DNA of 64,000 nt from Methanohalobium evestigatum Z-7303 (GTDB lineage: Archaea; Halobacteriota; Methanosarcinia; Methanosarcinales; Methanosarcinaceae). The position numbers were made by a program, and so were the translations under genes. The DNA is taken from positions 186,001 to 250,000 of the forward strand of contig NC_014253.1 in NCBI RefSeq assembly GCF_000196655.1, written 5' to 3'. The stretch's first letter is position 1. Each line of letters begins with the position of its first letter. The notes under the pieces were generated by a model. It did no database searches. It saw only the letters and a list, made by a program, of their open reading frames with translations, and was not told the origin of the DNA. Below, one piece after another: positions 35,127 to 53,374 of the stretch.

Positions 35127-36053
35127 TTATTCTGCATTTGCCATTTTATCGAGTGCTTCCTGAACTAGCTTTTTACCGCCTTTTCGAACCAGTTCCTCTC
35201 CTAATTCATTGGCTTCTTCTTTATAATTGTCAGCTGATATAACATCATCAACTGCAACATAATGAGACCCGTCCAAAGCCAGTACTTCTGAACGGATATG
35301 TATCTTTTCATCATTTACAAATTCAGCATACGCACCTATTGGAACTATACATCCTCCACCGACATTACCTATTAGTATGCGTTCAATTTCTGTTTCGATT
35401 TTGGTCTGTGGATGGTTTATACGTGAAACTACATTTTCTGATTCATCACCGGATTTTGCAACTACTGCAATAGCACCCTGATTGGCTGAAGGACAGAAAT
35501 GGTCAGTATCAAGCTGGTGCACAGGTATGTCCCATCCCATACGTCTTAATCCTGCTTCTGCAAGTATAATGCCGTCATATATTCCAGACTCCAGCTTTTT
35601 TAACCGGGTGTCTATATTCCCCCTGAGGCTCTGGACATCAAAGTCGGGTCTGTATCTTAAAACTTGGGATTTTCTGCGAAGTGATGTTGTGCCGATAACT
35701 GCACCTTCAGGCAGTTCATCCAGTGTAGAACCATCTCTGGTAAGTAGAGCATCAAACGGGGAATCGCGTTTAAGTACCGCAGAGGTTGGCAGTTCTTCTG
35801 GACGTTCGGTGGGCAGGTCTTTCATAGAATGCACTGCTATATCGAGTTCGCCAGATAACATCCTTTCATCAATTTCTCTTACAAATGCACCTACACCGCC
35901 CAGTTCATGCAGTGGACGGTCTGTAAAAGAGTCTCCAGATGTTTTTATTATTTTTAGGAACGTATTAACGCCCTCTTCTTTAAGCATCTGAGAGACTCTT
36001 CTTGTTTGTGTAAGTGCAAGGGAACTTCCACGTGTGCCTATTATTAAATCCAT
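35127..36053 (-). CDS. hemC: Hydroxymethylbilane synthase (porphobilinogen deaminase)
   Basis: Polymerises four porphobilinogens into hydroxymethylbilane. The 308-residue protein has IGTRGSSLALTQTRRV, HSMKDLPTERPEEL, GTTSLRRKSQVLRYRPDF, LRGNIDTRLKKLESG and the dipyrromethane-attachment cysteine in GGGCIVPIGAYAE. It lies 21 bp after hemL and 9 bp before pyrD on the same strand. No uroporphyrinogen-III synthase gene is visible in the window. Confidence 0.96.
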   Translation of the reverse strand: MDLIIGTRGSSLALTQTRRVSQMLKEEGVNTFLKIIKTSGDSFTDRPLHELGGVGAFVREIDERMLSGELDIAVHSMKDLPTERPEELPTSAVLKRDSPFDALLTRDGSTLDELPEGAVIGTTSLRRKSQVLRYRPDFDVQSLRGNIDTRLKKLESGIYDGIILAEAGLRRMGWDIPVHQLDTDHFCPSANQGAIAVVAKSGDESENVVSRINHPQTKIETEIERILIGNVGGGCIVPIGAYAEFVNDEKIHIRSEVLALDGSHYVAVDDVISADNYKEEANELGEELVRKGGKKLVQEALDKMANAE

Positions 36054-36074
36054 CTAATATTATTCTCCTTATAA

Positions 36075-37352
36075 TCAGGATTGTTTCAGGTTGCTTTCAT
36101 ACGCATTAAGTAATTTCTGGATGTCTGAATCACTGTGTGCATATGAGAGGAAATTCGTTTCAAACTGGGATGGAGGCAGGAAAATACCATCATTAAGCAT
36201 TCGTTTAAAGAAGTCAAAATAGCCTGATTTGTCGCATTTAAGAGTTTCCTGATAGTTAGTTGGAGCTTTTCCGAAAAATACCTTAAACATGGATGAAATG
36301 CCTGATACCTCATAATCCAATCCTGCATCTGATATTATATCTGATAGGCAGGAGCGTATTTCATCACCTTTCTTATTCAGAGTGTCATGAACGTTTTCGT
36401 TTTCAAGGACGTCCATTGTAGCAATTCCTGCGGAAAGAGTCGCAGGGTTTCCACTGAAAGTACCTGCCTGATAGACATTTCCATTTGGTGCAACCATATC
36501 CATGATTTCCCGTTTTCCACCGAAAACACCGACAGGCATACCTCCACCTACAATCTTTCCAAGAGTGGTCATATCAGGTGTAACGTTATAGTATTCCTGA
36601 GCTCCTCCCATTGCAAGTCTGAATCCTGTTATTACTTCATCAAAAATAAGAACAACATCGTTTTCTTCAGTTACTTTACGTACTTCTTTCAGGTAGTTTT
36701 CTTTTGGTAGAATGGGACCGATGTTGCCCATGACAGGTTCCATTATGACAGCAGCCATGTCATCTCTGTTTTTCTCAATAAGCTCTGTCATTGATTCGAT
36801 ATCATTAAATGGTGCCTGAAGTGTATGTTTTGTTACTTCTTCTGGTACTCCTTTCGAGTTTGGTTTACCAAGAGTAGTAGCACCTGAACCCGCTTTAACA
36901 AGGACTGAATCATGGGTGCCGTGGAATCCACCTTCAATTTTTAATATTTTGTTTTTTCCGGTATATCCGCGTGCTGTACGTATAGCACTCATTGTAGCTT
37001 CAGAACCAGATGAAACAAATCTTAGCATATCCATGCTCGGATATGCATCTGTTACTTTTTCAGCCAGTTTGACCTCGTTCTCAAGCGGGGTTCCATAAAG
37101 CCAGCCGTTATCCAGTTGTTCAGCAATTGCCTGTTTGATTTCTGGATGGGCGTGTCCGAGTAAATTAGGTCCGTAACCCATACAGAAATCAATGTATTCG
37201 TTTCCATCTACATCTTTTATTCTTGATCCTTGAGCAGATTCGGTATAAAACGGATAGGGCTGTATAGCACGTACAGGGCTGCTTACACCACCTGATATTA
37301 TTTTTTTAGCCTGCTCGTATAATTGTTTTGATTTTGTATTTTCGCCTTCCAT
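36075..37352 (-). CDS. hemL: Glutamate-1-semialdehyde 2,1-aminomutase
   Basis: PLP enzyme converting glutamate semialdehyde to 5-aminolevulinate, 425 aa. Seen are [53 protein letters not shown]-like sequence and the Schiff-base lysine segment [18 protein letters not shown]. It follows hemB and uses the product of HemA from the same run; together they give the C5 pathway of ALA synthesis. Confidence 0.97.
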
Positions 37353-37423
37353 GGTATCGCCTGTAATTATTATTTTAACTGATAACTAATCATAATGTAA
37401 TTATATATAAAATTGCCAAAGTT

Positions 37424-38401
37424 TTATTTCAAAAGCTTTGCCATATCTTTGGCAAAGTAGGTAAGTATCATATCCGCTCCGGCACGTTTAATGGATGTAA
37501 TTGATTCATAAATTATTTTGTTCTCGTCCATCCATCCGTTCTGTGCAGCGGCTTTTATCATCGCATATTCACCACTTACATTATATGCAGCAGTCGGCAT
37601 TTCAAGTTCATCTTTGATTCGGTATAGTATGTCAAGGTACGGGAGTGCGGGTTTGACCATTACAATGTCAGCACCTTCATCAATGTCCAGTTCCACTTCA
37701 CGGATTGCTTCATTGGAATTTGAAGGGTTCATCTGATAACTTGACCTGTCGCCAAAGGAATAACCTGATTCAGCGGCATCTCTAAAAGGACCGTAGAAAG
37801 CCGAGAAATACTTAGCCGCATAGGACATTATAGGAATGTTTTCAAAATTATTGTTATCAAGTTCGGACCTGATGGATTCTACCATGCCATCCATCATCCC
37901 GGATGGAGCAACCATATCTGCACCTGCTTCTGCATGGCTTACAGCAGTTTTTCCAAGTAATGGTAAAGTGGGGTCGTTCAATATTTCTTCTTTATCATAG
38001 TCCACAACACCGCAATGTCCGTGGGTTGTGTATTCACAAAGACAGACATCGGTAATTATAGCCATATCCCTGCTTGAAATATCGTTTCTGATGTTTCTGA
38101 CAGCACGCTGTACAACTTCATTGTTACCCCACGCAGAACTCCCAGACTCATCTTTTCTGGCAGGAACTCCAAAAATCATTATCGATGGAATACCAAGATC
38201 TGAGATTTCTTTAGCTTCGTCTGCTGCATAATCGACCGGTAATTTATAAGTACCCGGCATTGAGGGCACTTCCTGTGGTGTCTCAATATTTTCATCGACA
38301 AAAACAGGACATATCAGGTCATCTGCAGTAATTGTTGTCTCACGTACAAGATTTTGTAGCTTCCCTTGCCTTAATCTTCTCATCCGTACCTGTGGAAACA
38401 T
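37424..38401 (-). CDS. hemB: Porphobilinogen synthase (ALA dehydratase)
   Basis: Condenses two ALA molecules to porphobilinogen; 325 aa from the ATG giving MFPQVRMRRLRQ, with another ATG three codons earlier. Metal-site region is DVCLCEYTTHGHCGVV (Cys-rich, zinc type). Schiff-base lysines lie in SYAAKYFSAFYGPFRDA and DIVMVKPALPYLD. It is placed between hemA and hemL. Confidence 0.96.
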   Translation of the reverse strand: MFPQVRMRRLRQGKLQNLVRETTITADDLICPVFVDENIETPQEVPSMPGTYKLPVDYAADEAKEISDLGIPSIMIFGVPARKDESGSSAWGNNEVVQRAVRNIRNDISSRDMAIITDVCLCEYTTHGHCGVVDYDKEEILNDPTLPLLGKTAVSHAEAGADMVAPSGMMDGMVESIRSELDNNNFENIPIMSYAAKYFSAFYGPFRDAAESGYSFGDRSSYQMNPSNSNEAIREVELDIDEGADIVMVKPALPYLDILYRIKDELEMPTAAYNVSGEYAMIKAAAQNGWMDENKIIYESITSIKRAGADMILTYFAKDMAKLLK

Positions 38402-38433
38402 GTAAACCATCTCTCATTTGTTATATATCTGTG

Positions 38434-39684
38434 TTATTTTTTGTTATCAAGATTAAACAACCGAGAAGCGGTATCCATTAGTTCGTCTTCATCGTTTTCG
38501 GCTGCTTTTCTGAGCATTTTAGTGGGTTCTGCCAGAATTTTGTTAACAATAGAATGTGTAAGGTCATCCAGTACTTCAGATTCGATATCACCAATTGTGT
38601 GATAGGAACTTAAACGGTTGATTGCACGCTGTTTTTCTCTTTCACGAACATTATGCACCTGTCCATACAATTGTGAAATCAATCCATCAGCTTTCTGGCG
38701 TTTATACTGGGTATTCAGCAGTTCGAATTCTTCTTCTATCAGAGCATCCACTTTCTTTGCTTCGCCCCTTCTCATCTCCATATTTTTTTCATTTATCCTG
38801 CGAAGGCTATCGATATTGTGCAATTTCACATGTTCAATCTCTGAAATTTCAGGTTCGATGTCTCTGGGGGTTGCAATATCTATCAGAAGCAATTCTTTGT
38901 TTCTGTCATCCATTGCTTTTTCAATAGTGGATTTCCTCAAAACAAAATGCGGAGCAGCGGTTGCACATATAACTACATCAGCGTTTCTAATGCATTCATC
39001 GATATTATCAAACAAAACTGCATCTCCGCCAATTTCTTCGGCAAGCTGTTTGGCGGTTTCAAAGGTTCGGTTTGCAAGATATACCACATCCATATCTTTA
39101 TGAGCAAGGGCACGTGCAACAAGTGTACCCATTTCACCTGTACCTATAACAAGAATATTTTTACCGGTAAGTCCTCCAAGGATTTCATCAGCAAGGTCAA
39201 CAGCAGCAGATCCGATAGATACAGAACCTTTGTTTATTCGGGTCTCGGTACGAGCCTTTTTTCCAACCTGTATGGCTTTGGAAAACGCAGTATCAAGGGC
39301 AGGACCAATTGTACCCACGTTTTTGGCAGTGGTATATAAATCCTTAATCTGTCCAAGTATCTGGTCTTCTCCCACTATCATGGATTCCAGGCCCGATGCC
39401 AGTCTCAGAAGATGTTTTAATGAATCCTCATGGTCATAAAACTCAACGATATGGGAAGAAGCTCCCATATCTTTAGCAAAATGGAATAATACACTACTTG
39501 CTTTTGGTGATACTACATAAACTTCCACACGGTTACATGTTTTAAGAACCGCACATTCATAAACGTATTCATGAGAATAAAGCGATTTCAGCACATATTC
39601 TATATCACCATGCCATGCTTTTTCCATTTCCTCGATACTTGCTTTTGTATGGGTAATTACCATACTTGATATCTGCTGTGTCAC
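38434..39684 (-). CDS. hemA: Glutamyl-tRNA reductase
   Basis: First committed enzyme of tetrapyrrole synthesis, reducing Glu-tRNA to glutamate semialdehyde; 416 aa. The catalytic cysteine is in LKTCNRVEVYVV, followed by GLESMIVGEDQILGQIK, the NADPH fold ILVIGTGEMGTLVARAL, and a long helical dimerisation domain. It begins with GTG 39684, six bases after GGAGG. It heads the hemA-hemB-hemL-hemC run and follows the precorrin-2 dehydrogenase gene by 52 bases. Confidence 0.97.
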   Translation of the reverse strand: MTQQISSMVITHTKASIEEMEKAWHGDIEYVLKSLYSHEYVYECAVLKTCNRVEVYVVSPKASSVLFHFAKDMGASSHIVEFYDHEDSLKHLLRLASGLESMIVGEDQILGQIKDLYTTAKNVGTIGPALDTAFSKAIQVGKKARTETRINKGSVSIGSAAVDLADEILGGLTGKNILVIGTGEMGTLVARALAHKDMDVVYLANRTFETAKQLAEEIGGDAVLFDNIDECIRNADVVICATAAPHFVLRKSTIEKAMDDRNKELLLIDIATPRDIEPEISEIEHVKLHNIDSLRRINEKNMEMRRGEAKKVDALIEEEFELLNTQYKRQKADGLISQLYGQVHNVREREKQRAINRLSSYHTIGDIESEVLDDLTHSIVNKILAEPTKMLRKAAENDEDELMDTASRLFNLDNKK

Positions 39685-39736
39685 CAGGATCCTCCGGGTA
39701 AAAATAAATGTGGTTATTACGGGTTAAAAAATCATT

Positions 39737-40420
39737 TTAATCAATTTTTTCGCTTCTTAACTGTTCATCCACTATATTTAATGCTATATTATACGCTTTT
39801 TCATATGAATCAGAAAGAGCACTCCATACTGAATCATCTTCTATAATGTTCCAGAGGATTTGTTTTCGTTTTCTCTGGTCGGATATGACTTCTTTCAGGT
39901 AAGTACGTATGTCATTTTGAATTTCTGCCATTTCACTGTACTCTGGAGTAATCGTCTGTTCTATATTTTCACGGGTAAATTTTGAAATAGCGGGGCTGGA
40001 ACCAAGAGTGGAAATTCCGATTGTAAGGTCCCCTCTTTTAATAACAGATGGAACTATCACATCACCGATGTCATCCACCTGATTAACCAGGATATTTTTA
40101 TCTGTTTTATTTGCAACTTCTGTTATCCTTTGGTTTAATTGTCTGTTATTGGTGGCAGGTATGACCATAAATGCATCGTAAATTAAATCTTTTATTTGTG
40201 AATCATTGAGAGAATTGATATTTGATGTTATTAATTTGATTTTTCTGCTGTTTTCGAGTTCTTTTATACTGGATGTAAACGATGTACTTATAATGGTTGT
40301 ATCGGCATACGCGGAAAAAAATAGGGCTTTACGTTCACCCACAGAACCAGCTCCAAAAATTATGATTTTTTTGCCGCTTAGATCTATCATCAATGGAGTA
40401 AAGTTTTTATCAGAATTCAT
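39737..40420 (-). CDS. Precorrin-2 dehydrogenase/sirohydrochlorin ferrochelatase-like protein
   Basis: A 227-residue CysG-N/Met8-like protein that oxidises precorrin-2 to sirohydrochlorin; some members also insert iron or cobalt. It begins with LMIDLSGKKIIIFGAGSVGERKALFF (NAD-binding loop) and contains DAFMVIPATNNRQLNQRI, LVNQVDDIGDVIVPSVIKRGDLTIGISTLGSSPAIS. Its placement between ahbB and hemA links the upstream ring-building genes to siroheme, the precursor used by the Ahb enzymes. Confidence 0.92.
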   Translation of the reverse strand: MNSDKNFTPLMIDLSGKKIIIFGAGSVGERKALFFSAYADTTIISTSFTSSIKELENSRKIKLITSNINSLNDSQIKDLIYDAFMVIPATNNRQLNQRITEVANKTDKNILVNQVDDIGDVIVPSVIKRGDLTIGISTLGSSPAISKFTRENIEQTITPEYSEMAEIQNDIRTYLKEVISDQRKRKQILWNIIEDDSVWSALSDSYEKAYNIALNIVDEQLRSEKID

Positions 40421-40434
40421 ATTACCATTCTTTA

Positions 40435-40938
40435 TTATAATCTTACACCAGTTTTTTTAAATTCATGTTCGCTGAACAGTAGTTTATAATCAGTTATACC
40501 GGTAGCTTTTGATATTTCCTCTGCAACATATTCGCAGTCTCTTTTTGAATACGAATGAACCATTGTGAATAAATTATAGGGCCAATCTGGATACCTTGGA
40601 CGTTCATAGCAATGGGTAACCTCAGAAAAGCCTGCCATTATAGCACCTACCTCTTCAACTTTTTCATCAGGTACATTCCATATACACATGGCGTTGGCTG
40701 TAATTCCAATGGCTCTGTGGCCTATGGATGCTCCAAATCTTCTTATAATACCCTTATTTTCCATTTCTTTTATGATGTTTATAACTTCATCCTCACTAAT
40801 ACCCAGATAGCTGGCAATTTGGGCAAAAGGGGAGTGGGTAAATGGTATCCCATCTTGGGTGAGTTTAATAATTTTTGTATATATATTGTCCTTGTTGTCA
40901 ATATAACAGGATGAATTATTAGAGGTTTCATCTGACAT
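40435..40938 (-). CDS. ahbB: Siroheme decarboxylase subunit AhbB
   Basis: Lrp/AsnC-fold enzyme subunit. With AhbA it decarboxylates siroheme to 12,18-didecarboxysiroheme. Residues 20-75 form the winged helix ([33 protein letters not shown]), and the second domain carries [15 protein letters not shown] and [26 protein letters not shown] 38 bases inside the family pattern at 40938 is supported by GGGGTGA six bases upstream and overlaps the ahbA 3' end. Length is 167 aa. It is an enzyme despite resembling a regulator. Confidence 0.93.
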
Positions 40939-41383
40939 CAAATTTCACCCCGATTTTGAAAAGGCGTTTTGTGGGCAGATTTATAAGTGGGCATCCGGTT
41001 TCATTCCTTATTTCTTCAAGAATTTCATCAAGGCGCTGTTTGCTAGATGCTGATACTGTAAACCAGAGATTGTATTTATCAGGACGTAGGTAGTTGTGTG
41101 ATACTTCAGGATACTGATTGATATAATCAGCTATATCTGAAACCTGGGAATCTGGTGCTTTAACAGCAACAAGTGTACTTATACCACCTGTTTTTCTGGT
41201 ATTAATTATTGGACCTATTCTTCTGACTGCTCCTTTATAATAAAGGTCTTCTAATCTCTTTATAACTTCTTCTTCACTAATTCCAAGTCTCTCAGCCAGT
41301 TTTTCATAAGGATGGGTATCAAGAGGAAAATCAAGCTGTATCTCATTCAGGATTTTTTTGTCAGTCTCATCCAGCTGTATCAT
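40928..41383 (-). CDS. ahbA: Siroheme decarboxylase subunit AhbA
   Basis: The partner of AhbB, 151 aa, with the same two-domain Lrp-like fold ([55 protein letters not shown]). The histidine in SHNY corresponds to the heme-binding region of this family. Its ATG overlaps the ahbD stop as ATGA, so ahbD, ahbA and ahbB are translationally coupled. Confidence 0.93.
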
Positions 41384-42441
41384 TTGGATACCCTTGATTT
41401 CTGTTTCGGATTGTAAATACAGTACGGCTCTTCATCCATATAGTCACCGGTTCCAGCATAGGCACGAGCCCTGCAGCCGCCACAGATATTTTTGTATTCA
41501 CAGATACCGCATTTACCTTTCAGTTTTGTGACATCGCGAAGGTCATTAAATACCTTTGAATAGTTCCAGATCTCTTCAAATTTTTCGTCTCTTATATTAC
41601 CGGCAAGTGCTGGAAGATACCCACATGGATATACTTCACCTTTACTGGATACGAAGCAGAAACCTGTCCCACCAAGACACCCTCTTGTCATTGCATTGTA
41701 TCCCTCTTTTTTAAATGGTGGATTTTTATTCTCTTCCTGTGAACGTTGTAATGCGATTCTGAAATAATGTGGGGCACATGTAGCTTTTAATTGAATGGGT
41801 GAGGATTTTTGTTTTTCATAAAACCAGTTAAGTATATCTTCGTATTCTTCAGGTGGGATTTCATCTTTTTCGATTTCTTTACCTCTTCCAGTGGGTACGA
41901 GCATAAATATGTGTAGAGCATCAGACCCAATGTTTTTTGCAAATTCAAAAATATCTGGTATTTCTTTGATGTTGCGTTTTGTAATTGTAGTGTTAATCTG
42001 TATACCTATACCGGTATTTTTTAAAATCTCAATGCCATTTAAGGCACCCTCAAAAGCACCGGGCATACCCCGAAATTCATCATGGGTACGGGCGGTAGCA
42101 CCATCAATGCTTATACTCACTCTTTGTATGCCGGACCGTTTTAATTTATCAGCAATATTGGATGTAACCATTGTACCGTTTGTAGCCATTACAACTCTTA
42201 ATCCTTTATGAGTACCATAACTGGCTATTTCGAAGATGTCGCTGCGAACAAGTGGTTCTCCTCCACTTAAAATAAGGATAGGTTTTCCGAAATTTGCAAT
42301 TTCATCAATAAAACGCTTTGATTCACCTGTTGATAATTCATCTTTATCCATTTTGGATGTGGACGACCCTCTGCAATGTGCGCATGATAGGTTGCAGCTT
42401 TTTGTAAACTCCCATGCAATAAGTTTTGGTGGTTGTGCCAT
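41380..42441 (-). CDS. ahbD: Radical SAM heme synthase AhbD
   Basis: Oxidatively decarboxylates Fe-coproporphyrin III to heme b at the end of the alternative pathway. The radical SAM cluster cysteines are C16, C20 and C23 in [16 protein letters not shown] follows, and the C-terminal SPASM-like motif has [23 protein letters not shown] and [13 protein letters not shown]. The N-terminus [14 protein letters not shown] resembles AhbD better than AhbC; AhbC is not in the window. A TATA-like ATATTTATAA 24 bases before the ATG suggests a near-leaderless mRNA. It heads the heme run and is divergent from the cytochrome c genes. Confidence 0.88.
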
Positions 42442-42687
42442 GTTACCATTTCTATCAGGTTTTTATAAATATCTTAAAATTAATCCATGAGGTATATAAG
42501 GTATATAATATTGATTTTATAATCATTATTCAATTTGGTTAAATATGATGTGTTAAATTTACTATAGCCTGTATTAATAGTTATGTTTAATACAGCAAAA
42601 TTAATATTTACAGTATATGATTTTGAATACAGCAAATTTATAAATTTATAGCCGTGTAATAGAGATAAATAAAATGGTTTTATAACA

Positions 42688-42810
42688 ATGAATGCGTTAT
42701 ATATAGCGTTTGTTATTACATGGGTAACAATTTTAATATATGCAATATACCTGATACGAACACGTTTAAATCTAAATCGCGAACTTAAACGACTGAAAAA
42801 ACATCAATAA
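42688..42810 (+). CDS. ccmD: CcmD-like small membrane protein
   Basis: A 40-residue protein (MNALYIAFVITWVTILIYAI, then a basic tail with LNRELKRLKKHQ): one transmembrane helix followed by a charged cytoplasmic helix, the CcmD pattern. CcmD helps release heme-loaded CcmE from the CcmABC transporter. It ends 13 bases before ccmE, which strongly supports the call. TATA-like AATTTATAAATTTATAG at about 42636 would give a leader of roughly 20 bases; no SD is visible. Confidence 0.75.
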   Translation: MNALYIAFVITWVTILIYAIYLIRTRLNLNRELKRLKKHQ

Positions 42811-42823
42811 ACGGTATTTATAG

Positions 42824-43216
42824 ATGAACAAGGGCAAAAAAATACTAACAGCAATGGTTTTTATTGCAATAGTTGCAATTGTTGGACTCTGGAATGTAGA
42901 TTTTTCTGATGGTTACCTTATGGTATCAGAACTAAAATCTAATCCTAAAGATTATGTCGGTGGTAAGGTCAATACGATGGGGTCCATTAAAAACGGTACG
43001 CTTAACAAAACACCCGAATCTACAAGTTTTATACTAAAAGATGCAGAAAGCAAAACATATCAAATTTATATTGAATATACGGGCGATTTACCAGCAAACC
43101 TTGCAGAAGGTAAAAGAATCAGTCTAAGCGGAACAATGATAAATGATAAAAAAATCAAAGCTAATAAAATTGTAATGGGATGTCCGTCAAAATATAATGA
43201 AAAAACCAGTAGTTAA
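42824..43216 (+). CDS. ccmE: Cytochrome c maturation heme chaperone CcmE, CxxxY type
   Basis: A 130-residue membrane-anchored OB-fold protein: one N-terminal transmembrane helix (residues 7-23), then beta-strands (YVGGKVNTMGSIKNG, SFILKDAESKTYQIYIEYTGDLPANLAEGKRISLSG). The C-terminal IVMGCPSKY carries Cys120 and Tyr124, the CxxxY heme-attachment variant described for archaeal and Desulfovibrio CcmE in place of the bacterial His. It would hold heme for transfer to c-type cytochromes. ccmA, ccmB, ccmC and ccmF are not visible here. Its genes face the heme biosynthesis run. Confidence 0.88.
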   Translation: MNKGKKILTAMVFIAIVAIVGLWNVDFSDGYLMVSELKSNPKDYVGGKVNTMGSIKNGTLNKTPESTSFILKDAESKTYQIYIEYTGDLPANLAEGKRISLSGTMINDKKIKANKIVMGCPSKYNEKTSS

Positions 43217-43253
43217 ATTTAATATCAATTTTTAAAATGAATGAGGGCGCTTG

Positions 43254-44120
43254 ATGAATATTGAAAAATGGGATGAATATATACGCATTACAGATGCTAT
43301 GGACGAATTAATTGAAAATATGGATGATTCATCCCAAATAAAAAACGTTGTTAGCCATGTATGTAATTATGGTGGCAAAAGGATTAGACCAATTATATTG
43401 ATGCTTTCAACAGATATATGTGGTGGTGATTCAAAAACCAGTATTAATGCGGCTCTTGCGGTTGAATTAATGCATTCAGCATCTCTTATACATGATGACC
43501 TTATTGATGATGGGATAATTCGCAGAGGTGTACCTTCAGCTCATAAAAAATTTGGGCATTCAGCAGCCATGTTATGTGGTGATTTTTTAATATCCAAATC
43601 CATCGAACTCATGTCTTCTTACGGTCATAATGCGATAACTGAATTCGGGCAAGCAGGTATGTCAATGGCACATGGAGAAACCATTGATTTGGGCGGAGAT
43701 GATGCAGGTTTTGTAGAGGTTAATTATTTTGATTGCATATACAAAAAAACTGCATCACTTTTTGCTGCATGTGCCTCCATCGGAGCCTATATAAGTGGGG
43801 CAGATGATGAAATGGTACACAGATGCCGGTTATATGGTGAATATATGGGTACCGCTTATCAGATTGTAGATGATTTGCTTGAATATTTACATGAAATTGA
43901 TGACAAAAGTTCTGTTCGAAAATCTGTAACCCTTCCACAGATATATACAAAACAAATGACTCATGAAGAAGCAGTAAATAAAACAGTAGATAAAGTCGAT
44001 GAATATGTAACTCAGGCTAAAAACATAATCGTCGGGTTTGAATCAGAAAATGGAAAGGATAAGTTATTACAGATAACCAACCATATAACAATAGATATGC
44101 TCCCTGAAAACTATTTTTAA
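43254..44120 (+). CDS. Trans-isoprenyl diphosphate synthase
   Basis: A 288-residue prenyl transferase. The lysine-arginine substrate site is GGKRIRPI, the first Asp-rich motif is HDDLIDDG, and the second is YQIVDDLLEY, where the last Asp of the DDxxD motif is Glu. The usual GK-rich loop after it is shortened (DDKSSVRKSVTLP). ATG 43254 has GAGGG six bases upstream. Chain length cannot be deduced safely; Methanosarcina relatives make geranylfarnesyl diphosphate for methanophenazine. It lies 37 bp after ccmE and 25 bp before a radical SAM gene, suggesting a shared pathway. Confidence 0.88.
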   Translation: MNIEKWDEYIRITDAMDELIENMDDSSQIKNVVSHVCNYGGKRIRPIILMLSTDICGGDSKTSINAALAVELMHSASLIHDDLIDDGIIRRGVPSAHKKFGHSAAMLCGDFLISKSIELMSSYGHNAITEFGQAGMSMAHGETIDLGGDDAGFVEVNYFDCIYKKTASLFAACASIGAYISGADDEMVHRCRLYGEYMGTAYQIVDDLLEYLHEIDDKSSVRKSVTLPQIYTKQMTHEEAVNKTVDKVDEYVTQAKNIIVGFESENGKDKLLQITNHITIDMLPENYF

Positions 44121-44145
44121 ACTATCTTGTTAACAAAGGTGTAAT

Positions 44146-45330
44146 ATGCGAGTCTACGACAGGTCAACAATTAAAGTAAATGCAACTACCAAAAACAATA
44201 GAGTTGTGCTTGATGCAGAAGGTACTTTTTCTCCGGTAGTTAAACCTATATTAACACATATTAACAATGTATTCGGGGAAGAAAAACCTGTATCTGCTGA
44301 TGAAGACAGGATAATTTTTTCAACATGGCTCCCTCCGATACCCAGCAGTATATTTGGCAGGGTTGTTAGTTCACAGATAGGGTCTGTTTTTAAAAGACGG
44401 ATTCCAGACCAGTTTTCAATAGGAATCACTATGAAATGCCCTAACAACTGCATACATTGTGGGGCAGCAGATGTAGTTGCAAATCCTGAATTATCGCTGG
44501 ATGAAATAAATAATGCTGTAACCCAATCTATAGACCTTGGGTCTTATCTAATTTCTTTTGATGGCGGAGAAACCATGCTTCGAAAAGACCTTGAAGATAT
44601 GGTGGAAAATGTTGATAAAGAACGTGCGATAGCGACTGTCTTTACTTCGGGTTATGGTTTGACCGAACAGAGAGCGCAGAGCCTTAAAAATGCTGGACTG
44701 TACGCAGTAAGGGTAAGTTTTGATAGTCCGTTTGAAGATGAACATGATAAAGTTCGCGGTAGAGACGGTGCTTATCAGGATGCTATAAGTGCTGTAAAAA
44801 ATGCCAAATCAGCAAATTTACTTACCGATATGTTTGTTGTAGTGTCACCGGATAATATAGACAATCTCAAAGAATTTTACGACCTTGCGGTTGATCTTGG
44901 TGTGGACGAAATATCACTTTATGAAATAGTGGCTGTAGGGAGATGGCTCCACCAGGAAGACCAGATTTTGAATGATAGTGATGTATCACGTCTTGAAACA
45001 TTCCAGAAAAATATGAATGCAAAATCAGAAGGTCCAAGGGTTACAGCATTCCCCTATATTATGGGTCCAAAACAGTTTGGTTGTTTTGCAGGAAGGCGGT
45101 GGATACATGTAACATCTGCTGGGGATGTTTTGCCCTGTGCGTATACACCGCTTTCATTTGGAAATATACGTGAGGACAATTTGAAAGATATATGGAAACG
45201 TATGGGTAAACATTCAGCATATAAGAACCATGCTGATTACTGCATGATGAGAAATCCTGAATTCAGGAAAAAGTATATTCATACATTACCTGATGATGTA
45301 CAGATGCCTTACAGGATGGATAAAAATTAA
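44146..45330 (+). CDS. Radical SAM protein of unknown substrate
   Basis: A 394-residue radical SAM enzyme with C98, C102 and C105 in MKCPNNCIHCGAAD as the cluster ligands, SFDGGETML as the GGE-like motif, and a C-terminal SPASM-like segment (FGCFAGRRWIHVTSAGDVLPCAYTPLSFGNI). About 90 residues precede the cluster, longer than average. Distinct from AhbC/AhbD. Because it follows ccmD, ccmE and a prenyl synthase, I infer a role in a membrane cofactor or heme-related modification; nothing in the sequence proves the substrate. Confidence 0.85.
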   Translation: MRVYDRSTIKVNATTKNNRVVLDAEGTFSPVVKPILTHINNVFGEEKPVSADEDRIIFSTWLPPIPSSIFGRVVSSQIGSVFKRRIPDQFSIGITMKCPNNCIHCGAADVVANPELSLDEINNAVTQSIDLGSYLISFDGGETMLRKDLEDMVENVDKERAIATVFTSGYGLTEQRAQSLKNAGLYAVRVSFDSPFEDEHDKVRGRDGAYQDAISAVKNAKSANLLTDMFVVVSPDNIDNLKEFYDLAVDLGVDEISLYEIVAVGRWLHQEDQILNDSDVSRLETFQKNMNAKSEGPRVTAFPYIMGPKQFGCFAGRRWIHVTSAGDVLPCAYTPLSFGNIREDNLKDIWKRMGKHSAYKNHADYCMMRNPEFRKKYIHTLPDDVQMPYRMDKN

Positions 45331-45566: not shown

Positions 45567-45888
45567 ATGGCCAAAGATGACGTCTTATTGAAGATCAAAG
45601 AGGCAGAACAAAGTGCGGAGAAAACTGTGGAGGAGAGCGTCAAAGAAAAAAATGAACGCATCTCTAATGCAAAGGCTGAAGCTGATGAAATCATCAAACA
45701 GGCCAAAAAGGATGCTGAAGAATCAGCAAACAATTCGTACAAGTCTGAAGAAGAAAAAATACGTAATGAAAATGCAAAGATTATCGAAGATGGTAAAAAT
45801 GAGGCCGAATCAATTAAACAAAAGGCCCGAGAAAACGAAGATAAAGCTGTTGATTACTTAATCAAAGAGTTCGAGAGGGCAATCACAA

Positions 45889-45896
<8 letters not shown>
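45567..45896 (+). CDS. ahaH: A1AO ATP synthase subunit H
   Basis: Peripheral-stalk subunit of 109 aa, almost entirely a charged coiled coil (EAEQSAEKTVEESVKEKNERI and following). It pairs with subunit E to link the A1 head to the membrane sector. AGAGGATTTGC precedes the ATG. Its end overlaps the ahaI start by eight bases. First gene of the ATP synthase operon. Confidence 0.92.
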
Positions 45897-48181
<2,285 letters not shown>

Positions 48182-48286
48182 TCGTCGATGGATAAAATTC
48201 AACCGATGTAAGCCAGAAATAAAACAAGAAAATTAAAGAGCATTCTATTTTACTTTTTGCTCTTTAATTTATTAGGGTGTGAGAGT

Positions 48287-48838
48287 ATGGGTCTGGAAAC
48301 AGTAGTAAACGATATAATGGATGTTGCACATGCCGAAGCGGCCCAAAAGAAAGAAGAAGCTGATACTGAGGCAGCTCAAATAATCGAAGATGCCAAGGAA
48401 AAAGCAAAAAAAATCAAGGGTGACCGGCTCGCAGAAACAGAAGCAAAAATTGAGCGTCTAAGGAGACAGGAAATTTCCAGTGCGAATCTGGAAGTTAAAC
48501 GTGTCAAACTTAACGCACGTAAGGAAATACTCGATGAAGTATATAACAAAGCAGTTGATTCAGTTTCAAACTTATCACCATCAAAGAATGAAGAATTGCT
48601 AAAATCTCTCATAGACAAATATGAGCAACACGGTACCAGGGTATATTCAAATAAGGAATCCGAAGAAATTGTAAAAAAATTATCATCACTTGAGTACGCT
48701 GGAAATATAGATTGTATCGGTGGTATTGTCATCGAAAACAGTGATGGTTCTGTTAGACTGAATTATACTTACGATACAATTCTAAAAAGCGTATATGATC
48801 AATCATTAAAACAAATATCTGATATTCTATTCGGGTGA
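48287..48838 (+). CDS. ahaE: A1AO ATP synthase subunit E
   Basis: Peripheral-stalk subunit of 183 aa: a long charged helix (AHAEAAQKKEEADTEAAQII) followed by a globular C-terminal domain (YAGNIDCIGGIVIENSDGSVRLNYTYDTIL), typical of subunit E. I choose ATG 48287 with GTGAG just upstream; the longer frame from a TTG at 48257 lacks family sequence. The 105-bp gap after ahaK has no gene. Confidence 0.93.
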   Translation: MGLETVVNDIMDVAHAEAAQKKEEADTEAAQIIEDAKEKAKKIKGDRLAETEAKIERLRRQEISSANLEVKRVKLNARKEILDEVYNKAVDSVSNLSPSKNEELLKSLIDKYEQHGTRVYSNKESEEIVKKLSSLEYAGNIDCIGGIVIENSDGSVRLNYTYDTILKSVYDQSLKQISDILFG

Positions 48839-48843
48839 TCTCC

Positions 48844-49914
48844 ATGCATCTTTTTTCAAAACTAAGACGTAAAAGTGGAGGAGAAAACCTTCGGACTTCT
48901 AATTATTCGTACGTTACTGCACGCGTTCGTGCAATGAAAAGCAAGCTTTTACCAGCTGATACATATTCCAAATTTTTGAATATGGGCATTGATGAAATCA
49001 CCAGAACAATTGAAGAGTTGGAATACAAACAGGATATTGATGTACTGGCAAGACAGTATAGTGGTGCAGATTTAATAGAACATGCACTTAACCGTAATCT
49101 TGCAGTAACATTTACAAAAGTATTGAATATGGCCGAAGGGGAACCAAACTACCTTTTAAGCAAATACCTAAAAAGATATGATGTATGGAGTCTCAAAACA
49201 ATACTGCGTGGAAAACATTATAATGCGTCTCCTAATAAAATCGAGGAAAATATAATTTCAGCTGGTAAATACAGTTTTGACTTTTTATCAGATCTTGCAA
49301 ACAAAGATTCTTATACTGATGTTATATCAACATTAGAAAATACAGAATATTATCCCATATTAAAACAGTATGATGGAACCAATTTATCTGATATTGAAAA
49401 TGAACTTGAAAAAGAATACTATAAAGACCTTTTCATATCAGTATCTAAACTTAAATCTAAAAATAGTCGAATTTTTTCAGAGTTTGTTGGAACTGAAATT
49501 GATATTAAAAACCTTAGGACACTGTTCAGGTTGAAAATGTCAGGCATAGAACCTGAAGAAACCAGGAAACTGATGATTGAAGGTGGACATAGAGTTAAAA
49601 TGAAAGACATAGAGAGTCTATTGCCACTTTCGTTTGATGAATTTTTAAGTGCAGTTGATAAGTATTCGTACTGGTACAATTTCTCGGATGTAGTAAGTTC
49701 TGAGATGGAATCTTTGATAGACCTGGAAACTCAACTTCTAAAACAAAATGTGAAATTTGCATCCAGTATATCACATGTTTATCCACTATCAATAGTTCCA
49801 ATCATGGATTACATATTGAATAAGAAAATAGAAGTTGATAACCTCAGGATAATTATTCGGGGTAAATCAGCAGGTCTTGATAAGGAAGTAATCAGAAAAC
49901 AGTTGGTGATTTGA
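48844..49914 (+). CDS. ahaC: A1AO ATP synthase subunit C
   Basis: Central-stalk adaptor (V-ATPase subunit d-like), 356 aa, mostly helical with three similar helical domains. It begins [37 protein letters not shown]. It couples the c ring to subunits D and F. ATG 48844 follows GGTGAT; a GTG at 48835 overlapping the ahaE stop is an alternative start. Confidence 0.93.
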
Positions 49915-50213
49915 TGGAACTATCCGTTGTAGGTAATGGTGAGTTTGTGACAGGGTTCAGGCTGGCTGGTATCAGAAAGATACATGAAGTCAGTGATGAA
50001 AACCTTGAATCTGCAGTAAAAGAAGTAATAAAAGACCCTGAAGTAGGTATTTTAGTAATGCATGATGATGATTTTAATAAATTACCTCAAAATTTGAGAG
50101 ACAAACTCAATGAATCAGTAGAACCAACAGTAGTAACACTTGGTGGTACTGGTCAAAGTTCTAATTTAAGAGAAAAAATAAAACAATCGGTAGGTGTCGA
50201 CTTGTGGAAGTAA
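49914..50213 (+). CDS. ahaF: A1AO ATP synthase subunit F
   Basis: Rotor subunit of 99 aa with a Rossmann-like fold: [20 protein letters not shown], then [15 protein letters not shown] and a C-terminal helix. ATG 49914 overlaps the ahaC stop as TGATG, and the 3' end overlaps ahaA by ten bases. Confidence 0.94.
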
Positions 50214-51940
50214 AAGGTGAAATTTATCGTGTCTCAGGACCTGTAGTTATAGCCACAGGTATTAGACCAAAAATGTATGACGTGGTGAAAGTCGGCCACG
50301 AAGGATTAATGGGCGAAGTAATTAAAATTGAAGGTGATAAATCAACAATTCAGGTATATGAAGATACATCCGGTATAAAACCCGGAGAACCTGTTGAAAA
50401 TACAGGATTACCTTTATCAGTTGAACTCGGACCAGGATTGCTGGAAAGCATTTATGATGGTATCCAGAGACCCCTTCAGGTACTCCAAGATAAAATGGGG
50501 GATTTCATTGCAAGAGGTGCTACCGCTAACGGTATTGACCGTGAAAAACAGTGGGAATTTAAACCCATTGTTGACAAAGGCGACAAGGTAGAGCCTGGAG
50601 ATATAATTGGAGTTGTTCAGGAAACTCCAAATCTTGAGCATCAGATCATGGTACCTCCTAATATGCAGGGTGGTACTGTCAGTGATATCTATAGTGGAAA
50701 ATTCACTGTAGATGAAACTGTCTGTGTACTATCAAATGGAAAAGAGCTTTCCATGCTGCAAAAATGGCCGGTAAGAACTCCCCGTCCAACAAAAAGAAAA
50801 CTCAAACCAGACAAACCACTGTTGACCGGTCAGAGGATTCTTGACGGAATGTTTCCTGTAGCAAAAGGAGGAACAGCCGCTATTCCAGGACCATTTGGGT
50901 CTGGAAAAACAGTCACTCAGCAGCAGCTTGCAAAATGGAGTGATACCGATATTGTTGTATATGTCGGCTGTGGAGAACGTGGTAACGAAATGGCAGACGT
51001 TCTTGATGAATTTCCAGAACTCGAAGATCCAAAAGCTGGGCGTCCTCTGATGGAACGTACTGTACTCATAGCAAATACCTCCAACATGCCAGTTGCTGCA
51101 CGAGAAGCATCTGTTTATACAGGAATTACTATTTCTGAATATTACAGAGATATGGGATATGATGTAGCATTAATGGCTGACTCTACTTCACGATGGGCAG
51201 AAGCAATGAGAGAAATTTCATCCCGTCTTGAAGAAATGCCTGGTGAGGAAGGTTATCCAGCATATCTGGCTGCAAGACTGTCCGAATTCTATGAAAGAGC
51301 AGGATATGTAAAATCCAATTCTGGTTACGATGGTTCTATTACAGTGATAGGAGCAGTATCACCACCTGGAGGAGATTTCTCTGAACCTGTAACTCAGAAC
51401 ACATTACGTATTGTGAAGGTTTTCTGGGCACTTGATGCCAAATTGTCTCAGAGGCGCCACTTCCCTGCAATCAACTGGCTTACAAGTTACAGTCTTTATA
51501 CAGAAAGTTTGTCTGATTGGCTTTCAGAGAATGTGGCATCAGACTGGATAGATCTCAGAAATTATGCAATGGATATTCTTGAGGAAGAATCAGAACTACA
51601 GGAAATTGTACAGCTTGTGGGATCTGATGCACTTCCCGAGAGTCAACAACTAAAACTTGAAGTAGCACGTATGTTCAGGGAATATTTCCTTCAGCAGAAT
51701 GCATTCCATGAAATCGATAGATATTGTCCGTTCTACAAACAGTATAAGTTAGTTCAGGCAATTCACAAGTTCTCTGAAACAGCAAATTCAAAACTTGAAG
51801 CCGGGTATTCAATAAATGATATCATGGCTATGGAATCAAAGGATGAACTTGCAAAAGTAAGATATGAAGAAGATTTCGATGGTGCACTCAACAAAGTATT
51901 ATCCAAGATGGATGATGAATTCTCACAGATTGGAGGATAA
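50204..51940 (+). CDS. ahaA: A1AO ATP synthase catalytic subunit A
   Basis: Catalytic subunit of 578 aa. It contains the Walker A loop [11 protein letters not shown], preceded by the archaeal/V-type insertion (the non-homologous region, near residues 110-190), the [27 protein letters not shown] segment and the C-terminal helical domain. It starts with GTG 50204, seven bases after AGGTG, and overlaps ahaF. Confidence 0.97.
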
Positions 51941-51946
51941 TAAACA

Positions 51947-53374
51947 ATGACTAAAGAATACAAAACAATCACCCAAATTTCTGGTCCTTTGATTTTCCTC
52001 GAGAAAACCGAACCGGTTGGCTATGGAGAGCTGGTTCAGATTAATACAGAAGATGGTTCCACAAAAAGAGGACAGGTTCTTGATACCTCTGGAGATACAG
52101 TGGTTGTACAGGTTTTTGAAGGTACAGGAGGTCTTAATGATTCAGCTGGTGTAGTATTCACCGGTGAAACCATCAAACTTCCAGTATCAAAGGACATGCT
52201 TGGAAGAATCCTTTCAGGTTCAGGTGAACCACTGGATGAAGGACCACACATTGTACCGGATAAACGGCTGGATATCAATGGAGCAGCAATGAATCCGTAT
52301 TCCAGAAGACCTCCTGAAGAATTCATTCAAACAGGTATCTCTACAATAGATGGTACCAATACCCTTGTCAGAGGGCAGAAACTTCCAATTTTCTCTGGTT
52401 CAGGACTTCCTCATAATGAAATTGCACTCCAGATTGCAAGACAGTCGACAGTACTGGGTTCTGAAGAAGAATTCGCTGTTGTTTTTGCGGCAATGGGTAT
52501 TACCCATGAAGAATCTCAGACTTTCATGGATGACTTTGAGAAAACAGGAGCACTTGAAAGGGCAGTAGTATTCCTTAACCATGCTGATGACCCTGCAGTC
52601 GAGCGTATGATTACACCAAGAATGGCTCTTACCGCAGCTGAATACCTTGCATATGAGCATGATATGCATGTACTTGTAATCCTTACGGATATGACAAACT
52701 ATGCAGAAGCACTTCGTCAGATGGGTGCTGCTCGTGAAGAGGTACCTGGTAGACAGGGTTATCCGGGATATATGTATACAGACCTTGCATCTCTCTATGA
52801 AAGAGCAGGTGTTATAAAGGGTAGAAAAGGGTCTGTAACCCAGATTCCAATTCTGACCATGCCTGGTGATGATATTACACATCCTATTCCAGACCTTTCT
52901 GGATACATTACCGAAGGACAAATTGTGGTTTCAAGAGAACTCCACAGAAAGGGAATCTATCCACCGATTAATGTATTGCCTTCGCTGTCCCGCTTGATGG
53001 GTAGTGGTATAGGAGAAGGTAAAACCAGGGACGACCACAAAAAGGTATCTGACCAGCTCTATGCAGGGTATGCAGAAGGTAGAGACCTTAGAGGTCTTGT
53101 AGCTATTGTTGGTAAAGAAGCACTGTCTGAAAGAGATAGAAAGTTCCTTGAATTTGCCGACCATTTTGAAGATCGGTTTGTCAGACAGGGTAGAGATGAA
53201 AACAGAAGTGTAGAAGACACTTTGAATATATCATGGGATATTCTTTCCGAGCTTCCGATCAAACAGCTTACAAGAATTGATGATAAAATCATTGAAAAAT
53301 ACCACCCTGCAAAACAGACAACATCAAAGTCTGAATACCAGCCACAAGAACAGGAAGTATCTGGTGAGCAATAA
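51947..53374 (+). CDS. ahaB: A1AO ATP synthase regulatory subunit B
   Basis: Non-catalytic nucleotide-binding subunit of 475 aa. Characteristic segments are [40 protein letters not shown] (degenerate P-loop, as expected for subunit B), and [31 protein letters not shown]. The C-terminus has an extra glutamine-rich tail ([19 protein letters not shown]), slightly longer than usual. Confidence 0.97.

Follow-up and report, generated by a model that had tools for sequence, protein, structure and literature searches.

Methanogens with cytochromes use methanophenazine as their membrane electron carrier. We analysed a stretch of 64,000 nucleotides (nt) from Methanohalobium evestigatum Z-7303 (bases 186001–250000 of contig 1, hereafter the window) and found in it two neighbouring genes, one for an ortholog of geranylfarnesyl (C25) diphosphate synthase (GFPS) and one for a radical S-adenosylmethionine (SAM) protein, here called rSAM-A, that recur as a pair in methanophenazine-type archaea. 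Elsewhere in the genome (2 contigs, 2,406,232 bases, of which contig 1 holds 2,242,317) lie genes for two paralogs, rSAM-B and rSAM-C, a UbiA prenyltransferase (UbiA-M) and a flavoprotein of the geranylgeranyl-reductase family (GGR-M). Our best reading of these sequences is that the six genes together would make methanophenazine, with the radical SAM proteins acting on the phenazine headgroup. That rSAM-A participates in this synthesis we consider probable, and any given reaction within the set is predicted with less confidence than that.

Methanophenazine biosynthesis has been described as unknown (PMC6315138, PMC8546582), such that genomes could not be mined for it (PMC4683180), and a PhzF domain occurs in only some methanophenazine makers (PMC5244752). 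No paper assigning the functions proposed here was found in a search that most subscription papers and preprints fell outside; papers pairing "methanophenazine" with "radical SAM" did not, judging from titles and abstracts, concern this link, and a transcriptome paper on HdrED repression does not mention these genes. As the genes can be deleted in Methanosarcina, the set makes the question directly testable. It could further serve as a genomic marker for methanophenazine versus menaquinone in uncultured archaea, and it draws attention to a radical SAM family without an assignment.

Two linked loci and their distribution

The best NCBIfam model for the window prenyl synthase was NF040627 (GFPS_Meth), and the protein retains the Asp-rich catalytic motifs DDLID and DDLLE (DDxxD). 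Orthologs in 20 genomes of the genus Methanosarcina, located at the same place beside rSAM-A, scored 604–625 bits, over the 600-bit equivalog cut-off of the model. By family and gene order, the window protein is thus a syntenic ortholog of the GFPS of M. mazei, and a C25 product is well supported by this orthology. The C25 synthase that has been characterised is M. mazei MM_0789 (Ogawa et al. 2010, cited in PMC3017947 and PMC9478090). The two proteins share the family NF040627, the place beside the ATP synthase in Methanosarcina and a C25 product proposed for methanophenazine, whereas the window protein differs in scoring under the cut-off and in having its chain length predicted from orthology. 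In M. acetivorans, the GFPS over the cut-off lies at C1:5066461-5067315 and adjoins ccmE at 5.07 Mb; MA0606 has been given as the homolog of MM0789 (PMC8546582), and the two may be different prenyl synthases. The other five genes of the set map in M. acetivorans to C1:5067457-5068632 (rSAM-A), 5458914-5460026 (rSAM-B), 5457549-5458703 (GGR-M), 5456614-5457528 (UbiA-M) and 208764-209849 (rSAM-C).

In every fetched locus with both genes, rSAM-A was located directly 3' of GFPS on the same strand, the gap ranging from about −157 to 255 nt (some genomes are represented by more than one locus, and the negative values reflect longest-open-reading-frame start choices). This adjacency spans the Methanosarcinaceae (family f1 of our genome set), genome G186 of family f5 and, in a different order, the Methanothrix family f7. 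In loci L073–L076 of family f3, rSAM-A stays with ccmD-ccmE and GFPS is absent. Since genes of separate pathways (heme, Ccm, GFPS, ATP synthase) share the region (PMC3017947), rSAM-A might owe its position to an island of respiratory-chain genes that have no biochemistry in common, and have an unrelated function. We regard this as very unlikely, as the GFPS–rSAM-A pair is kept in f7 with no heme, Ccm or ATP synthase genes at its side, and as the paralog rSAM-B is itself linked to UbiA and GGR genes.

This second linkage, in the order UbiA-M, GGR-M, rSAM-B, was found in the window genome, in M. acetivorans (G074), in the barkeri-type genome G076 and in G078, G081, G010, G033, G043 and G186, a range that takes in Methanosarcina, one further family and genera from the gut, with intergenic gaps of −4 to 186 nt in the ten fetched loci from f1 and G186. 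The three genes are located apart in the Methanothrix genome G233. Within a panel of 61 genomes, GGR-M was detected at E ≤ 1e-60 in 38 of the 39 genomes with all three radical SAM proteins and in none of the 22 without them (0/22), and UbiA-M, which retains the NDxxDxD and DxxxD motifs, at E ≤ 1e-80 in 31 of 32 trio-bearing Methanosarcinia and in no menaquinone-type genome (hand counts).

Presence was also counted by hand over 237 genomes of the class, with a threshold of E ≤ 1e-60 for the radical SAM proteins. None of the 39 genomes from family f2 (6) and from genera g25 and g26 of family f5 (33) carried rSAM-A or a family paralog, which were found in 197 of the 198 genomes outside this group; the sole outside genome without one (G125) is 57% complete. 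The menaquinone marker MqnE was over its cut-off in all eight f2 and g25/g26 genomes of the panel and in G307, a menaquinone-type genome of another class, and in none of the 39 panel genomes with the trio; the best match to the MqnE model TIGR03700 in the window genome reached 340 bits, under the cut-off of 434.55. Family f2, in which the McrA matches are divergent only, would fit alkane oxidisers, and g25/g26 would fit Methanoperedens. Methanophenazine was not detected in a Methanoperedens enrichment (PMC4683180).

The first-pass annotation of this locus had linked the prenyl synthase and the radical SAM protein to methanophenazine, and this link gains from both the syntenic orthology of GFPS and the occurrence of the radical SAM family in methanophenazine lineages and its absence where the menaquinone pathway is found. 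The annotation had named the occurrence of the radical SAM gene in cytochrome-free, methanophenazine-free methanogens as a finding that would speak against this link. Six Mcr-bearing genomes of other orders (G237, G238, G244, G247, G253 and G256), presumably cytochrome-free methanogens, gave no match to rSAM-A at E ≤ 1e-40, and this check did not refute the link. The three paralogs and the UbiA/GGR locus had escaped it. Parts of the linkage had been published before: GFPS was noted to adjoin genes for heme and ATP synthase (PMC3017947), and ccmE to lie with GFPS in a putative operon (PMC9084895).

The UbiA and GGR families also work in archaeal membrane-lipid synthesis, and one fold match of rSAM-A is GDGT-MAS, an enzyme of archaeal lipids (Z 20.0). 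It is accordingly conceivable, if unlikely, that the radical SAM, UbiA and GGR proteins make or modify another lineage-specific isoprenoid, such as hydroxyarchaeol or another prenyl lipid, and that only GFPS serves methanophenazine. Against this stand the GFPS–rSAM-A linkage in two orders, the separate second GGR- and UbiA-family proteins with far lower scores in many of these genomes, which are probably the membrane-lipid enzymes, and the absence of the set from Methanoperedens-type genomes, whose organisms still make archaeol-type lipids.

Related gene clusters occur in families f12, f18 and f22, where three family radical SAM proteins are encoded together with a GGR-family protein (related to GGR-M at E 1e-82 to 1e-92), a UbiA-family protein, another radical SAM protein and a cytosolic NMT1-fold (binding-protein-fold) protein; the corresponding genes of family f16 are split over two places. 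A joint action of the radical SAM, GGR and UbiA proteins is supported because this clustering is independent in the unrelated families f12, f18 and f22. No McrA match was found in these three families, and Met12 is described as an archaeon without Mcr (PMC11176372). Of the three family radical SAM proteins there, one falls into clade C of the tree described below and two form clades of their own. A redox lipid is predicted for Met12-like archaea. The binding-protein-fold gene was rejected as a general pathway member, with strong matches only in f12, f18, f22 and f16, and so was an assignment of f16 (G254) to ANME-1, as the McrA motif CCx4Cx5C was not found.

Paralogs, fold and predicted chemistry of the radical SAM proteins

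Three strong members of the family were present in nearly all methanophenazine-type genomes among the 17 searched. A tree of 48 members with AhbD as outgroup resolved three supported clades (A, B and C), all of them with members from f1, f3, f4, G186 of f5, f6 and f7, which marks rSAM-A, -B and -C as ancient paralogs. They have in common the N-terminal signature STWxPPIPSxxFxRL. In two Methanosarcina genomes (L123:9746-10960 and L162:2758-3996), rSAM-C has lost the CxxxCxxC motif as well as C-terminal Cys residues and looks like a catalytically dead pseudo-radical-SAM protein. The genes trpS, pheS and those for an aIF2-beta-like protein, a ribosomal L10e-type protein, an HrcA/CBS regulator and a NOG1 GTPase, found by rSAM-C or the Methanothrix rSAM-B, are housekeeping genes and were judged unrelated. 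Genome G307 has four divergent McrA-like matches, and its rSAM-B groups with the f4 copies and looks like an acquisition by transfer.

In rSAM-A, an N-terminal domain of ~88 amino acids (aa) bearing the signature precedes the SAM-cluster motif CxxxCxxC (Cys98/Cys102/Cys105). In a full SPASM set, two auxiliary clusters are held by seven C-terminal Cys; behind the core of rSAM-A only Cys313, Cys331 and Cys366 are conserved, and the protein would hold one auxiliary Fe-S cluster at most. The closest NCBIfam relatives AhbD, NirJ2 and PqqE, all cofactor-building enzymes, resemble rSAM-A in combining a radical SAM core with a C-terminal cluster region, but rSAM-A differs in an N-terminal domain of its own, in having only three conserved C-terminal Cys and in the scores: it reached 126.8 bits for AhbD (TIGR04545, equivalog cut-off 500), 122.5 bits for PqqE (TIGR02109, cut-off 381) and 121 bits for NirJ2 (far under the model cut-off), and all three identities were rejected. 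The MoaA model gave 83 bits, under its cut-off of 325.

The AlphaFold model of rSAM-A (pLDDT 93.5, pTM 0.92) is closest among solved folds to the peptide maturases SkfB (Z 26.2; 3.5 Å over 289 residues) and SuiB (Z 24.0), followed by BlsE (23.0), PqqE (22.9), MoaA (21.5) and GDGT-MAS, and SkfB is also the best sequence match in the PDB (E 1.6e-29). These matches are what speaks for rSAM-A being a peptide or protein maturase, acting for example on a RiPP-like peptide or an electron-transport enzyme. Yet identity to SkfB and SuiB is only 16–19%; the N-terminal domain, predicted alone, has no confident structural match (best Foldseek E 1.1, best VIA Z 4.2) and was not recognised as a RiPP recognition element; and nearly the same scores are reached by PqqE, BlsE and MoaA, a group not confined to peptide enzymes. 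Modification of Mcr in particular is disfavoured by f12, f18 and f22, which have family radical SAM proteins and no McrA match. We therefore think a maturase distinctly unlikely.

For methanophenazine synthesis, the following steps are proposed. GFPS would supply the C25 diphosphate, as others have demonstrated for the M. mazei ortholog, UbiA-M would join this chain to the phenazine headgroup, and GGR-M would saturate one of its double bonds, which the 2,3-dihydro form of the methanophenazine chain demands. The three radical SAM proteins may build or oxidise the headgroup in steps that need no oxygen. Bacterial phenazines are hydroxylated by oxygen-dependent enzymes, a route closed to these oxygen-free organisms, and radical SAM steps are therefore a plausible substitute. 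The likeliest mechanism for rSAM-A would be attack of a 5'-deoxyadenosyl radical on a precursor of the headgroup, in which the putative auxiliary cluster at Cys313, Cys331 and Cys366 may bind substrate or accept an electron, as in MoaA-like enzymes. MoaA itself (GTP 3',8-cyclase) is similar in fold and has a three-Cys C-terminal cluster that binds substrate; rSAM-A scores under the cut-off of its model. The degenerate rSAM-C of the two Methanosarcina genomes could act as a structural partner only. The nearest analogy is the futalosine pathway to menaquinone (MqnE, MqnC and the UbiA-type MqnP), in which radical SAM steps likewise build the ring and a UbiA enzyme adds the chain, but with other radical SAM families. 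More tentatively, and as something possible rather than expected, the methanophenazine pathway could be unrelated to bacterial phenazine synthesis altogether, with the trio (one member degenerate in Methanosarcina) assembling the ring without oxygen and the same family producing a related redox lipid in archaea that lack methanogenesis genes, for example Met12 from serpentinite springs.

Several observations weigh against assigning the set to methanophenazine. The window GFPS itself falls below the equivalog cut-off, and family f3 has rSAM-A, -B and -C, UbiA-M and GGR-M without a GFPS ortholog (best E 1e-37). The gene for rSAM-C is located among housekeeping genes, the menaquinone-type G307 carries a lone rSAM-B (L127:7707-8837), and the nearest folds to rSAM-A are peptide-modifying enzymes. 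The relatives in f12, f16, f18 and f22 use different UbiA and radical SAM subfamilies, and may make methanophenazine or another product. Finally, Fisher p values of co-occurrence ignore shared ancestry, and the class may hold only one or two independent losses.

Cytochrome c maturation and archaeal CcmD

The neighbouring ccmD, ccmE and heme operon, together with weak similarity to AhbD and NirJ2, could suggest heme or the maturation of c-type cytochromes as the target of the radical SAM protein, a possibility that the first-pass annotation had also considered. Over the 237 genomes, however, rSAM-A and CcmE occurred together in 110, rSAM-A alone in 87, CcmE alone in 37 and neither in 3 (hand counts), the genomes with rSAM-A and without CcmE including every one of the 50 from the Methanothrix family as well as gut genera and the M. 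barkeri group. The gene is not tied to c-type cytochromes, and the relation is the opposite of coupling. With the AhbD model failed by far as well, a role in heme or cytochrome formation is highly improbable. In the preferred assignment to methanophenazine, ccmDE and the heme genes would belong to the same respiratory chain and stand outside the pathway.

CcmD has been described as absent from archaea, with CcmABCEF sufficient in M. barkeri (PMC9084895). The CcmD model TIGR04391 matched 72 of 111 Methanosarcinaceae genomes (hand count). All 72 belong to the 83 genomes that have CcmE, and the 28 that lack it gave no match; the family also occurs in f3. In most loci read, an open reading frame of 34–46 aa ends a few to ~40 nt before ccmE. 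The 34-aa M. acetivorans protein, MEPFILAFAISWILIFAYLLSLLKTYAEFNKRLM, is encoded by an unannotated gene preceding ccmE (L064:7946-8050; TIGR04391 35.5 bits). A dN/dS of ~0.15 within Methanosarcina indicates that ccmD is under purifying selection. Barkeri-type genomes (L065:7700-8349, and L066 upstream of GFPS) have a relic of the ccmD tail and a broken ccmE beside intact GFPS and rSAM-A. Like CcmD of the bacterial System I, the archaeal proteins are small, single-helix proteins encoded beside ccmE that match TIGR04391; they differ in their length of 34–46 aa and in the reported sufficiency of CcmABCEF in M. barkeri. On this evidence the absence of CcmD from archaea is contradicted, whereas the sufficiency of CcmABCEF in M. 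barkeri is not, and the view that archaea mature cytochrome c without CcmD should be re-examined.

Gene layout of the window

The four same-strand genes from ccmD to rSAM-A were all present where the first-pass annotation had placed them and matched their family models, and its 40-aa CcmD and its CcmE with Cys120 and Tyr124 are borne out by the scores and residues in Table 1. The divergent heme operon is likewise present, with the correction that a dehydrogenase gene between ahbB and hemA had been omitted from the earlier gene list. The block is not due to chance, because it recurs in relatives.

Table 1. Positions of the genes discussed, in the window unless a contig (C1, window genome) or locus (L) is given
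Feature	Position	Strand	Basis or remarks
ccmD	42688..42810	+	40 aa, one membrane-helix-like stretch; TIGR04391 48 bits, cut-off 24
ccmE, CxxxY type	42824..43216	+	130 aa; PF03100 51.6 bits, cut-off 24.6; Cys120, Tyr124
GFPS (C25) ortholog	43251..44120	+	polyprenyl synthetase 175 bits; NF040627 377 bits, equivalog cut-off 600
rSAM-A	44146..45330	+	394 aa; Radical_SAM (PF04055) 70.5 bits, cut-off 29.5; SPASM (PF13186) 40.4 bits, cut-off 21.5
Divergent intergenic region, ahbD/ccmD	42442..42687	.	sequence
ahbD, heme b synthase	41380..42441	-	TIGR04545 581 bits, cut-off 500; first gene of divergent heme operon
Rest of heme operon: ahbA, ahbB, dehydrogenase, hemA, hemB, hemL, hemC	35127..41383	-	open reading frames; genes other than the dehydrogenase named from sequence in the first-pass annotation and matched to relatives
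Siroheme-synthase-type dehydrogenase, between ahbB and hemA	39737..40420	-	TIGR01470 104 bits
A-type ATP synthase genes	45567..53374	+	downstream of rSAM-A; first gene resembles V-ATPase subunit G/H
rSAM-B	C1:1735303-1736421	-	family search
GGR-M	C1:1736457-1737611		family match; flavoprotein
UbiA-M	C1:1737637-1738575		family match
rSAM-C	C1:486868-487977		family search
Related cluster, Met12-like G241	L117:9836-17545		also L114, L116

The ATP synthase subunits after the first gene were called from gene order and sequence, and an ATP synthase neighbour of rSAM-A was also found in Methanosarcina. The closest named relative is a Methanohalobium metagenome-assembled genome, with an rSAM-A 97% identical. 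For GFPS, the ATG at 43254 is a likelier start than the TTG at 43251, and TATA-like TTTATA sequences at 42637 and 42645 could serve ccmD.

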